A stretch of DNA of 64,000 bases from Aliarcobacter cibarius. GTDB taxonomy: Bacteria > Campylobacterota > Campylobacteria > Campylobacterales > Arcobacteraceae. Below, piece after piece: positions 1-8,306 of the stretch. Numbering within the stretch: position 1 is the first letter of the stretch; each line of letters opens with the position of its first letter. The notes beneath the pieces are model-generated. The model was not told where the DNA came from and did not search any database. It saw only the letters and a program-made list of their open reading frames with translations. The DNA lies in the NCBI RefSeq assembly GCF_013372265.1, contig NZ_CP054051.1:372001-436000 (forward strand), written 5' to 3'. Made by a program: the position numbers and the translations under genes.

Positions 1-592
1 TTGCTAATGCTCTTAGATTTCTTTCACTTCGTGGAAATGGATGTTCTGCTATTTCACTTTGAAAAACTTTCATAATCTCAATTTTCTTATCAAAGTATTC
101 ACTTATATCTACAAATACATTTGGAATAAAACTATCTTCTTTAGTGCTTGGGGCAAACTCTGTTTCACTTAAAGTTTCTATCATATATATTTTTTTGACA
201 AATGGGTATCTAAATGATTTAGTACAACTATAACTTGCTTCAAATATTTTTCTATGATCGCTATGAACATCACCTTTAAATGGAAGATATATAATATTTG
301 GTTTAACTTCATTTATCACTTGTGAGATTTTTCCTACAAGTTCACTCATACTATATTCATCTACTTGCATAGTTTTTAATCTTAAATTATGCACACTATC
401 AAAATTATATAGTTTTGATACTTCGTCAATCTCTTTTTCTCTTGTTTCATAATAGTTATGATTTTTATCTATGGTTGTACATATAAGCCAATGTATTTCA
501 TCTCCATTTGCTTTATGCTTAAGTAATGTTCCACCACAGCCCAATGTTTCATCATCTGGATGAACTGCTATTACTAGAATTTTGTTTTTCAT
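1..592 (-). CDS. PIG-L (LmbE-like) family sugar N-deacetylase, 3' end outside window
   Basis: Reading back from an ATG at 590-592 gives an open frame of 197 codons that runs off the left edge, so the C-terminus is missing. The N-terminus MKNKILVIAVHPDDETLGCG carries the AHPDDE-type zinc motif (residues 9-15), and a second metal-binding HSDH lies near residue 110; both are hallmarks of PIG-L/LmbE deacetylases, which remove N-acetyl groups from GlcNAc-type sugars. The start overlaps the stop of the upstream neuC-like gene by 4 bases (ATGA), so it is the distal gene of the sugar operon. A role in deacetylating a nucleotide sugar or glycan intermediate is inferred; the substrate cannot be read from sequence. 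Confidence 0.88.
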   Translation of the reverse strand, partial: MKNKILVIAVHPDDETLGCGGTLLKHKANGDEIHWLICTTIDKNHNYYETREKEIDEVSKLYNFDSVHNLRLKTMQVDEYSMSELVGKISQVINEVKPNIIYLPFKGDVHSDHRKIFEASYSCTKSFRYPFVKKIYMIETLSETEFAPSTKEDSFIPNVFVDISEYFDKKIEIMKVFQSEIAEHPFPRSERNLRALA

Positions 593-1755
593 ATTAGTTT
601 TCTTTTCGTATACCATTTTTCATCATTTAAATTAATTTCATCTAAAAAACTAACAATTTTTTTGTGAGCGTAGCCATCTCCATAAGGATTTATTAAATTT
701 TTTACAAATTCTCTATAGTCTTCATCGTAAAAAGCTTTATTAATAGCATTCTTAATTATAATTTTATCATATCCTACAAATTCAACGTTTCCAGCATTTA
801 ACCTACCTTTTTGTCTATTTCCTATATTTACAACTGGCAATTTATAAAGTGGTGCTTCTAATATACCCATACTTGAATTACCAACTAAAACTTTTGCATT
901 TCTCATTAAATTAACAAATATTTCTCTTGGTAAAGTTTTATAAAATTTTATGTTTTCATTACAATTATCATCTATAGCTTTTAAAATATCATAAGAACCC
1001 GGATCTGTATTTGGATAAATACCTATTACTTTAATTTTTTTCTCGATAGCAAATTCACTGATTGCTTTCATTGATATATTCATTTGTTCATAGCTATCTT
1101 TAACTTCCGATGATAATGGATGCTTTAAAACAACTATATATTCATTATTGGCGATGTCAATCTTTAGAAAATCACTTAACTCATTTCTATCAATTATTTT
1201 TGTTTCTAAAATATTATTAAGTGCAGGATTTCCACTAAAACAGATTCTAAACTCTTCTTCACCTAATTTTTTTATATTTTCTGCATAAGTATTTGCTGTA
1301 GCAAAATGAATATGAGCAAGTTTACTACAAGCTATTCTTATTGGATCATCAGAATTTCCATAAACAGGATCTCCTCCTCCAATATGGGCAACTAAAACAT
1401 CCATATAATTACCAACAACACAAGTTGCTATACTTTCTTCTCTATCTCCAACAAAAATTAAAAAATCTGGTTTTTCCCTATCAACAGTTTGAGTAAGTCC
1501 TTCTATTAATAGTCCTACTCCTTTGGATCTTTGAGTTTTTCTATTTGTCATAAGTAAATAATCAATTTTTTCAACTATTTCAAAACCATCTTCTTCTATT
1601 TTTTCTAAAGTAAATCCATGCCAATCAGAAAGGTGAGCACCAGTAACAACAATTTTTAAATCAAAGTTTTTACTATTTTGTAACTCTTTTAAAACAGGAT
1701 ATAAAATATCATATTCAGAACGAATTCCAGTTACTGCTAATATCTTTTTTTTCAT
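589..1755 (-). CDS. UDP-GlcNAc 2-epimerase (hydrolysing), NeuC/LegG type
   Basis: 388 aa, the usual size of hydrolysing UDP-sugar 2-epimerases that release a ManNAc-type sugar from the UDP donor for sialic or legionaminic acid synthesis. Visible are the N-terminal TGIRSEYD motif (about residues 9-16), VGDREE in the middle, HIGGGDP, and the C-terminal nucleotide-binding GNSSMGILEAP. It overlaps the HAD gene upstream and the PIG-L gene downstream by 4 bases each, indicating translational coupling. With LegB, LegC, LegH and LegI encoded upstream it would supply the missing LegG step (2,4-diacetamido-2,4,6-trideoxy-mannose formation). Its N-terminus differs from the 13-codon legG remnant at 6224-6265, so it is a different copy. 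Family assignment is firm; the exact substrate is inferred from context. Confidence 0.85.
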   Translation of the reverse strand: MKKKILAVTGIRSEYDILYPVLKELQNSKNFDLKIVVTGAHLSDWHGFTLEKIEEDGFEIVEKIDYLLMTNRKTQRSKGVGLLIEGLTQTVDREKPDFLIFVGDREESIATCVVGNYMDVLVAHIGGGDPVYGNSDDPIRIACSKLAHIHFATANTYAENIKKLGEEEFRICFSGNPALNNILETKIIDRNELSDFLKIDIANNEYIVVLKHPLSSEVKDSYEQMNISMKAISEFAIEKKIKVIGIYPNTDPGSYDILKAIDDNCNENIKFYKTLPREIFVNLMRNAKVLVGNSSMGILEAPLYKLPVVNIGNRQKGRLNAGNVEFVGYDKIIIKNAINKAFYDEDYREFVKNLINPYGDGYAHKKIVSFLDEINLNDEKWYTKRKLI

Positions 1756-6223: not shown

Positions 6224-6265
6224 TTAAGCTCTTGTTCCTGTTACTACACAAACTTTTCTTTTCAT
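6224..6265 (-). pseudogene. legG 5' remnant (13 codons then stop)
   Basis: An ATG at 6263-6265 overlaps the stop of the DUF1016 gene as ATGA and reads MKRKVCVVTGTRA followed by TAA. This is the N-terminal signature of hydrolysing UDP-GlcNAc 2-epimerases (NeuC/LegG), where TGTRAEYG is the conserved continuation. Here the expected Glu codon GAA is TAA, the next codon TAT still fits Tyr, and then homology stops. It sits exactly where legG is expected after legI. The piece is short, so the assignment rests on the motif plus the position. Confidence 0.7.
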
Positions 6266-6291
6266 ATCAACTCATCTTCTTTATAATTTTT
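6260..6291 (-). repeat. 32-bp direct repeat, distal copy (end of DUF1016 gene)
   Basis: Matches 7306-7337 in 30 of 32 positions by eye. It encodes the last residues NYKEDELI of the DUF1016 protein plus the following ATGAAA. The other copy encodes DYKEDELI at the end of LegI. The two copies bracket a unit of 1046 bases carrying the nuclease gene. Confidence 0.85.
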
Positions 6292-7311
6292 TATTTTATA
6301 CTTCTGCTTTGCATTTTCTATTGCTCTATGAAGTCGTTTTTCAAACTTATCTTTTGGAGGTAAAACTGTAAGATATTTTGCTATATGAATATCGCTTTCT
6401 CCTAGTTCTAGCAGTTCTATTTGTTCTTCATTTTTATCACTACAAAGTATTATTCCTAAAGGTCTGTTTTCATCATCTTCTTTTTCATGTTTTTCCAAAT
6501 ATTTCAAATAAAGTTCCATTTGTCCTTTGTACTCTGCTTTAAATTTACCAAGTTTTAAATCAATAGCTATCAATCTTTTTAGTTTACGATTATAAAAAAG
6601 TAAATCTATATAAAAATCATCATTTCCTATTTGAACTCTTTTTTGTCGTGCTATAAAACTAAAGCCATTTCCAAGTTCTAATATAAAATTTTCAATATCT
6701 CTTAAAATCGCATCTTCTAAATCTTTTTCTAAATACCTATCGTTTAACTCTAAAAAATCTAAAATATATGGGTCTTTTAAAATAATATTTGGAGTTACAA
6801 CACCTTCTTTTAATTTTTCTATCTCATAAGATATTAATTCATCTGGTTTTTTTGATAATACTGTTCGTTCATAAAGCATTGAATCTATTCTATCATTTAG
6901 TGTTCTTGTACTCCATTTATAAAGTTTTGTCATTTCTATATAAAATGTTCTTTTTAGCTCATCTTCTATATAAATTAAAGTTTTTAAATGAGTCCAAGTT
7001 AATTGTGTACTCAGCGAATGCACTATCTTTTCATCATTAAAAATTTTATAAAATCTAATCATATTTATAACATTTCTCTTAGAATAACCTCTTCCAAACT
7101 CTTGAGTTAATTGTGTACTCACTGAATGCACAATTTGTTCTCCATAATTGGCTCTTGAGTTTTTAAGTATGTCTTCTTCTATTTTTTTACCAATATTCCA
7201 ATAAAGTAGAGTCAAAGATGAATTTACACTAATAGCTACTTGCTCTTTTGTAGCTAATATAATAGTTTTTAGGTCTTCTACTAAAATTTTATTGTCTATT
7301 AATTCTTTCAT
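6262..7311 (-). CDS. DUF1016 / YhcG-type PD-(D/E)XK nuclease
   Basis: 349 aa. The N-terminal half fits the DUF1016_N helical domain, including YWNIGKKIEEDIL and the paired segments VHSVSTQLTQEFGRGYSKRN and VHSLSTQLTWTHLKTL that occur normally in this family. The C-terminal half carries a nuclease core: FYIDLLFYNRKLKRLIAIDL followed by KLGKF (about residues 225-250), with the D...DLK catalytic pattern. YhcG proteins are predicted nucleases linked to mobile or accessory DNA, and their cell role is not settled. It starts inside the legI stop (ATGA overlap) and ends inside the start of the legG remnant (ATGA). Its last residues KNYKEDELI copy the C-terminus of LegI. It interrupts a sugar pathway operon and has no evident role in it. 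Confidence 0.88.
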   Translation of the reverse strand: MKELIDNKILVEDLKTIILATKEQVAISVNSSLTLLYWNIGKKIEEDILKNSRANYGEQIVHSVSTQLTQEFGRGYSKRNVINMIRFYKIFNDEKIVHSLSTQLTWTHLKTLIYIEDELKRTFYIEMTKLYKWSTRTLNDRIDSMLYERTVLSKKPDELISYEIEKLKEGVVTPNIILKDPYILDFLELNDRYLEKDLEDAILRDIENFILELGNGFSFIARQKRVQIGNDDFYIDLLFYNRKLKRLIAIDLKLGKFKAEYKGQMELYLKYLEKHEKEDDENRPLGIILCSDKNEEQIELLELGESDIHIAKYLTVLPPKDKFEKRLHRAIENAKQKYKIKNYKEDELI

Positions 7312-7337
7312 ATTAACTCATCTTCTTTATAATCTTT
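7306..7337 (-). repeat. 32-bp direct repeat, proximal copy (end of legI)
   Basis: Copy of the repeat at 6260-6291 with two differences. It spans the legI C-terminal codons (DYKEDELI), the ATGA overlap and the first codons of the DUF1016 gene. It is likely the ancestral copy, because legI needs these codons and the DYKEDELI-like ending is in keeping with NeuB/LegI proteins. Confidence 0.85.
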
Positions 7338-8306
7338 AGTAGCGATTGTTCCAACAATTTCATCCCATCTCATAGGACTTATTCCATTTCCTGGTCTTTT
7401 TATCGCAAGATTATTTTCGCATAAAATCTCACCTTTTTTAATATCACATTTTGCAACTATTGATTTTCTAGCTATTGATTTATTCTTTGATTCACTCTTA
7501 GATGGTTTTTTAATACTACTTCCTAGAGCTAATTCTATATTTCGAATAGCTTTTACCATAGCTTTTAGTTCGTCTGGTTCTAAAGAAGCTTTATGGTCTG
7601 GTCCTTCCATAGTTTTATCTAAAGTAAAATGTTTTTCTATACAATAGGCACCCAAAGCAACAGCAGCTATATCAACTTCTATTCCCAAAGTATGGTCACT
7701 ATATCCAAAAGCTATATCAAAGGTATTTCCTATTGTTACCATTGCTTTTAAATTTACATCTTCCATAGGAGTTGGGTATTCTGTATTTGCATGTAAAACT
7801 ATGATATTCTCTTTTTTTGTTCCAGCATTTATTAATATATTCAAAGCATCTTCAATCTCTCCAATATTTGCCATTCCAGTTGAAAGTATTACTTTTTTAT
7901 CTAATCTTCCAATATGTCTAAGATATGGTAAATTTGTAATTTCTCCACTTGGTATTTTGAATATTTCTAATCCTAAATCGTTTAGTAATTCGATACTATC
8001 ATGATCAAATGGAGTAGATAAAAACATGATATTTTTTGATTTACAATAAGAGATAAGTTCTTTATGTGTATTTACATCTAGTTCAAGTTTTTTTATCATA
8101 TCAAATTGAGACTCTAATTTGTCAGTAGTTTGTTTTTGATAATCTGCTTTTTGTGCATTTTTTGATACAAGCTTTTCAGCTTTAAATGTTTGAAACTTTA
8201 CAGCATCTGCACCACTTTCACTAGCTACATCTATAAGCTTTTTTGCAAGTTCAATACTCCCATTATGGTTAACTCCAGCCTCTGCTATTATAAATACTTT
8301 TTTCAC
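7308..8306 (-). CDS. legI: N,N'-diacetyllegionaminate (nonulosonate) synthase, NeuB family
   Basis: 332 aa. The NeuB TIM barrel begins with FIIAEAGVNHNGSIELAKKL and continues with SGADAVKFQTF, ILSTGMANIGEIEDAL, the substrate/metal loop FGYSDHTLGIEVDIAAVALG and IEKHFTLDKTMEGPDHKASL. An antifreeze-like SAF domain follows from about residue 275 (VAKCDIKKGEIL...KRPGNGI). The enzyme condenses a ManNAc-like sugar with phosphoenolpyruvate to a nine-carbon acid. The order legB-legC-legH-legI favours legionaminic over sialic acid, though the exact epimer is inferred. The start overlaps legH by 4 bases. The C-terminal codons are duplicated in the next gene. Confidence 0.88.
   Translation of the reverse strand: MKKVFIIAEAGVNHNGSIELAKKLIDVASESGADAVKFQTFKAEKLVSKNAQKADYQKQTTDKLESQFDMIKKLELDVNTHKELISYCKSKNIMFLSTPFDHDSIELLNDLGLEIFKIPSGEITNLPYLRHIGRLDKKVILSTGMANIGEIEDALNILINAGTKKENIIVLHANTEYPTPMEDVNLKAMVTIGNTFDIAFGYSDHTLGIEVDIAAVALGAYCIEKHFTLDKTMEGPDHKASLEPDELKAMVKAIRNIELALGSSIKKPSKSESKNKSIARKSIVAKCDIKKGEILCENNLAIKRPGNGISPMRWDEIVGTIATKDYKEDELI

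Follow-up and report, generated by a model that had tools for sequence, protein, structure and literature searches.

A DUF1016 nuclease gene between copies of neighbouring gene ends at the legI/legG junction of Aliarcobacter cibarius, and other genes with the same footprint

The window analysed here, a stretch of 64,000 nucleotides from Aliarcobacter cibarius, contains a nuclease gene lodged between legI and a remnant of legG in a nonulosonic-acid operon, and bracketed by two direct copies of a 32-bp sequence. How could a single ORF enter such a junction with no transposase, and leave the upstream gene unbroken?

The junction and the nuclease

All features of the junction lie on the reverse strand. 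The upstream gene, legI (7308-8306; NeuB family and SAF domain by domain search), is intact and its product ends in DYKEDELI. Its stop overlaps the start of the nuclease ORF (6262-7311, 349 aa) in an ATGA at 7308-7311, and the nuclease stops in a second ATGA (6262-6265), which opens a legG remnant of 13 codons (6224-6265, MKRKVCVVTGTRA and then a stop) matching the start of legG in empty sites, e.g. those of G008 and G007. Direct-repeat copy 1 (7306-7337) consists of the legI 3′ end and the nuclease start ATGAAA; copy 2 (6260-6291), identical to it at 30 of 32 positions, consists of the nuclease tail YKEDELI, its stop and the start of legG. The two ATGA junctions, the positions of the repeats and the YKEDELI terminus common to LegI and the nuclease had all been put forward in a preliminary description of this DNA, and were confirmed by sequence and translation. 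As ATGAAA is part of the repeat, the first codons of the nuclease seem to derive from the legG start, and its final codons and stop from the legI terminus.

The repeat pair has a score of 26, compared to a 99% value of 16 and a maximum of 22 in 1000 dinucleotide shuffles of both flanks. A chance likeness of two A/T-rich gene ends might be suspected in this A/T-rich region, where the nuclease itself has a GC content of 0.254, but with a score above all shuffles its probability is close to nil. As stated in the preliminary description, no inverted ends were detected: among the 25 longest of the 27 inverted pairs found, none pairs the ends of the insert. The insert contains no transposase either, and consists of one DUF1016 ORF according to the ORF list and domain search, so that neither hallmark of a transposon or IS (transposase, terminal inverted repeats) was found. 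A second, distant legG-like gene (Epimerase_2, 589-1755, reverse strand) is present at the far end of the operon, and may replace the function of the truncated legG.

The nuclease is composed of a DUF1016_N and a YhcG_C domain of the PD-(D/E)XK type (Pfam E-values 4e-45 and 8.2e-50), is assigned by PADLOC to PDC-S02, a candidate defence class, and is the sole PF06250 match in its genome. The active-site motif of the DUF1016/YhcG PD-(D/E)XK family is E-D-(D/E)xK (PMC1189080). The corresponding residues E199, D236, D251 and K253 are all present in the window nuclease, and across 96 family members E199 is conserved in 90, D236 in 95, D/E251 in 96 and K253 in 96. With an AlphaFold model (mean pLDDT 76, pTM 0.50), the top Foldseek matches included PD-(D/E)XK nucleases of the Cas4 and MGME1 types, none of them with E ≤ 0.001, and no solved structure matched the protein by sequence at E 0.01. 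The protein is likely to be an active nuclease. It is best seen as cargo, with defence or selfish maintenance as its assumed function. The N-terminal domain harbours a 41-bp internal direct repeat (83%, 6997-7037 / 7105-7145) encoding two similar VHSxSTQL stretches, and similar pairs are found in relatives. In Neisseria animalis, a DUF1016 ORF is reported between the last capsule gene and galE (PMC6202450).

Origin of the tail, and the junction in other genomes

DUF1016 genes were collected from the family and from 397 sampled genomes of the phylum, yielding 113 ORF hits, 96 of them full length. For legI, 30 loci including the window were compared, the best matches among 104 genomes. The window nuclease is the only one of the 96 to end in EDELI, against 13 LegI proteins in 30 that end in YKEDELI, meaning that the tail is that of legI. 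YKEDELI on DUF1016 proteins at unrelated loci had been announced in the preliminary description as a refutation of its reading; it was absent from the other nucleases of the 96, and the EDELI end was likewise absent from 52 DUF1016 ORFs or fragments from wider genome-contig loci.

The three nearest relatives of the nuclease in the genus (84, 78 and 77%) sit elsewhere than at legI/legG, and end in KYQIKG or KYKIKD without YKEDELI. The L162 nuclease lies between Methylase_S and HSDR_N genes, and the neighbours of the L163 nuclease look similar by eye. At L161, the native nuclease end contains an AAAGATT, and the legI tail begins with these 7 nt as well, so that the two may have been joined here. 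The native nuclease start differs from the ATGAAA of the window, which is the start of legG in the remnant. Because of these two observations, the inserted piece may have been without a start and a stop of its own. We found no donor with this nuclease beside legI. A mosaic legI, with a donor segment at its 3′ end, was not visible, the last 60 bases being identical to those of G007 at 59 positions. Phages and plasmids were also considered as carriers and discarded: all of 15 phage records had less than 60% identity to the window nuclease, as did 454 of 455 plasmid records, with no close match.

At 21 of the 29 legI loci outside the window, nothing separates legI from legG, and the two are joined by an ATGA or a close variant. 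The remaining 8 have another gene at the junction or next in line: MaoC-GNAT (L034, L039), a 605-aa ORF (L047), a second kind of DUF1016 gene (L051), PemK (L054), an oxidoreductase-like ORF recognised by eye (L058), SLFN_AlbA_2 (L059) and a TylF methyltransferase (L060). Two DUF1016 subfamilies share the legI/legG junction, one in the window and one in L051/L124. In L124, the start of legG (reverse strand, ~6340-6420), next to the end of the second DUF1016 gene, reads MTRCNSTGTRTK ahead of ICVVTGTRAE, and MTRCNSTGTRTK looks by eye like a tandem patch of legG's own first codons.

A second copy of the last 30 bases of legI was found at none of the 29 loci within flanks of about 1.5 kb or less, the best matches being 17-21/30 compared to 28/30 in the window; with longer flanks for four of the loci, the values were again 17-20. 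This means that the duplicated sequence is single in sites without this insert. An empty site already containing the 32-bp sequence twice, posed beforehand as a second refutation, was not encountered among these loci, and an insertion at legI/legG, with a tail copied from legI and the reading of legI kept, is supported.

The tail could also have been acquired late, if the nuclease had inserted without duplication, lost its stop, and gained the legI end by slippage or gene conversion between neighbours. The C-terminal tail is indeed the only part of the protein that is atypical compared to its relatives. However, the 32-bp repeat does not end with the tail but runs through the stop into the legG start, ATGA is kept at both junctions, and the empty sites fit a single insertion step, which together make this scenario very improbable.

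Recurrence of the footprint around DUF1016 genes and other cargo

Among the 96 full-length ORFs, 88 had enough flank for a test of ungapped direct repeats (score ≥19 between the two flanks, with other ORFs of the same loci as controls), and 83 for a blastn test with 1.5-kb flanks. Flanking direct repeats were detected for 11 of 88 DUF1016 genes compared to 2 of 225 other ORFs (Fisher p 2.5e-5). By blastn, 13 of 83 DUF1016 genes were positive (including L150, L122, L112 and L129), compared to none of 53 genes taken from other loci (p 0.0017). Of the two control matches in the direct-repeat test, one is an ORF6N gene that has this footprint too, and the other is beside hsdS-like sequence.

Seven of the 11 repeat pairs, window included, look like copies of a neighbouring gene end. 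The copied sequence is the 5′ end of an Epimerase-family gene in L144, of a CoaBC-type flavoprotein gene in L137 and of an AIR-synthase-family gene, identified as hypE from its sequence, in L196; it is an hsdS-like start, by eye, in L198, and a sugar-dehydratase/epimerase start in L201. The L176 pair, in which the nuclease tail resembles the end of the upstream EcoEI_R_C (hsdR-type) gene, is ambiguous: no such tail is present in L175 and L177, its relatives at 97%, but a similar tail (MELKREIFK) occurs in L179, and in L178 the nuclease is preceded by a short leader of a similar kind. The other four are not simple gene-end copies. Two of them correspond to the tandem nuclease pair of L131, the L183 repeat was matched to no gene, and in L184 the duplication is longer and covers the 3′ part of an upstream gene.

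At L131, two identical DUF1016 proteins are encoded in tandem, with their flanks repeated. Nucleases of one subfamily, at the different loci L175-L179 and L183, share a short leader (like GGGAGATTTATAG) before the start codon, which is similar to the terminus of the hsdR-type gene found in L176 and L126, and was perhaps carried along during movement.

A wider scan of contigs, mostly from other phyla, gave 2 positives among 30 testable loci, L263 and L264, which are identical in sequence and were counted as one case. In L263, hsdM (N6_Mtase, HsdM_N) is followed through an ATGA overlap by the nuclease, and then by an hsdM-like tail ending in ATGA at the next ORF; this is the closest analogue of the window insertion. 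Tight overlap with both neighbours was rejected as a nuclease-specific trait, being found for 32 of 82 nucleases and 127 of 362 other genes.

The footprint is not confined to DUF1016 genes. Two further inserts with this architecture emerged when the hypE 5′ end was searched across 80 genomes belonging to one genus. In L220, the opening codons of hypE recur as a remnant (38/45 bases) ~950 bases before the full gene, and a nucleotidyltransferase-HepT (MNT-HepT) pair lies between the two; in L249, an ORF6N gene occupies this position. With the DUF1016 gene of L196, the hypE 5′ end has therefore received three kinds of cargo in three genomes, each lying next to a remnant of the hypE start. In L125, copies of an epimerase-like 5′ end stand on both sides of an ORF6N gene. 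A footprint that DUF1016 relatives share with a few other small selfish-type genes suggests a general route of insertion more than a special trick of the nuclease.

These observations bear on the homing-like strategy proposed in the preliminary description, in which the nuclease itself copies the end of the recipient gene. By homing, the nuclease would cut the empty junction and be copied in together with a resistant version of the neighbouring gene end, so that the neighbour goes on working. The active-site residues kept across the 96 family members, the enrichment of repeats around this family and the presence of two DUF1016 subfamilies at the same legI/legG junction would fit such a process. 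Nevertheless, the MNT-HepT and ORF6N inserts have the same footprint, 77 of the 88 DUF1016 genes are without such a repeat, many other gene families are found at legI/legG, and no recognition site was identified. The proposal thus found no support, and owing to the other cargo we keep homing as a rival only, and an unlikely one. In a broader form of the idea, DUF1016 genes would be one-ORF minimal mobile elements entering operon junctions with a diverged copy of the neighbour's end that rescues this essential or useful gene, a natural counterpart of the 'cut and rescue' gene drive, and the nuclease would aid spread by cutting the uninserted junction; we consider this improbable.

A further possibility is that some enzyme made a staggered break of ~32 bp which took in the ORF and was filled in, leaving an ordinary long target-site duplication. 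The window is compatible with it, as the copies are 30/32 identical, in direct orientation at both ends, and single in empty sites. The other cases speak against it, first by the length of the duplications, which varies from about 26 to 150 bp (~90-150 bp in L144, L137 and L263, compared to 32 bp in the window), and second by the divergence between copies. In a simply decayed duplication, changes would be mostly nonsynonymous. Synonymous and nonsynonymous codon differences were counted, and 8 pairs were compared to 2000 neutral simulations with equal base-change rates. For L137 (15/2), L144 (7/2), L263 (16/11), L249 (7/1) and L125 (11/4), the synonymous share was above all 2000 simulations. 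The excess was weaker for L201 (5/4, P 0.0185), and absent for L196 and L220 (1/3 each), which are uninformative. Counted without simulation, L198 (2/2) and L176 (1/3) showed no synonymous excess, and the window copies differ at 2 of 30 coding bases, one synonymous and one nonsynonymous.

Given the strong synonymous excess, the copies in at least five pairs were separate alleles, already diverged under selection when they came together, which favours recombination with an incoming allele over duplication on the spot. A simple decayed target duplication is rejected for these five of the 8 tested pairs, and their divergence also goes against homing by the nuclease. For the window such a duplication is not rejected, since its nearly identical copies fit two alleles as well as a duplication. 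Taking into account the varying lengths, the diverged alleles and the lack of transposase or inverted ends, we regard the staggered break as a tentative alternative. In L137, relatives match both coaBC copies about equally, and the sequence upstream of the remnant resembles by eye that upstream of coaBC in L214.

A route by recombination, and known systems

For the window, we lean, with confidence a little better than even, to the entry of a bare nuclease ORF into the legI/legG junction by DNA uptake followed by one-sided homologous and illegitimate recombination, with a 32-bp duplication. A DUF1016 ORF stripped of promoter, start and stop would arrive by DNA uptake. Homologous recombination would take place on one side, inside the neighbour gene, and illegitimate joining at a short homology on the other, so that the recipient's own gene end would be left as a remnant beside the donor's copy. 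The left copy would supply the legI stop and legG start (ATGA, ATGAAA), and the right copy the last codons and stop of legI. As the two copies provide start and stop, legI would remain whole and the nuclease would be read with the nonulosonic-acid operon.

The readable footprint is that of promoterless defence-type genes which enter operons without a transposase and leave the host gene unbroken. Different cargo can show it at one and the same junction, as at the hypE 5′ end, so that the movement of restriction-type and toxin-type genes becomes testable by strain comparison and transformation. The footprint also accounts for unusual C-termini, and for short 'orphan' ends of genes, which are misread in automated annotation.

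Several known systems resemble parts of this arrangement. Some prophages and islands restore a gene end on integration, e.g. e14 at icd. They too bring a replacement gene end and leave the host gene whole, but here there is no integrase, the insert is one ORF, and the lengths of the duplicates vary. Homing endonucleases are single nuclease genes found at recurrent sites with the host gene intact, as in the window; unlike them, the present footprint is shared by other cargo, and cleavage by the nuclease is a prediction. In the DUF1016, YhcG and PDC-S02 literature, covered for the most part at less than full-text depth, we found no account of a duplication-flanked DUF1016 insertion.

Homology-facilitated illegitimate recombination (HFIR) is known from work on naturally competent bacteria, which also yielded duplications, 109-950 bp long, by single crossover of a circular molecule (both in PMC3240628). 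A similar one-sided reasoning was proposed for the effector arrays of Vibrio cholerae (PMC5361080). The likeness to HFIR lies in homology on one side, in a conserved neighbour, illegitimate joining on the other, and an older piece that can stay beside the new one. The difference is that HFIR products, as far as these sources describe them, mostly have a deletion in the recipient, and that the duplications mentioned above are ascribed to the circular single crossover.

The closest parallel comes from restriction-modification (R-M) genes, which reportedly insert with long target duplication, a finding that the papers given below credit to Nobusato 2000 and Furuta 2010. The duplications are long and variable, of the order of 100 bp (PMC1643837, PMC3031569, PMC3154945, PMC3874152), and the process was described in Helicobacter pylori (PMC1643837). 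Both cases present a transposase-less unit with nuclease-type cargo, direct repeats around the insert, and a single copy in the empty site; moreover, R-M operons are among the neighbours of DUF1016 genes. The differences are that the cargo here is a lone DUF1016 ORF (or ORF6N, or MNT-HepT), that the window duplication, at 32 bp, is shorter than the order of 100 bp cited, that the insert borrows its start and stop from the copies, and that several copy pairs are diverged alleles. The window insertion is best read as a variation on the 'insertion with long target duplication' known for R-M genes.
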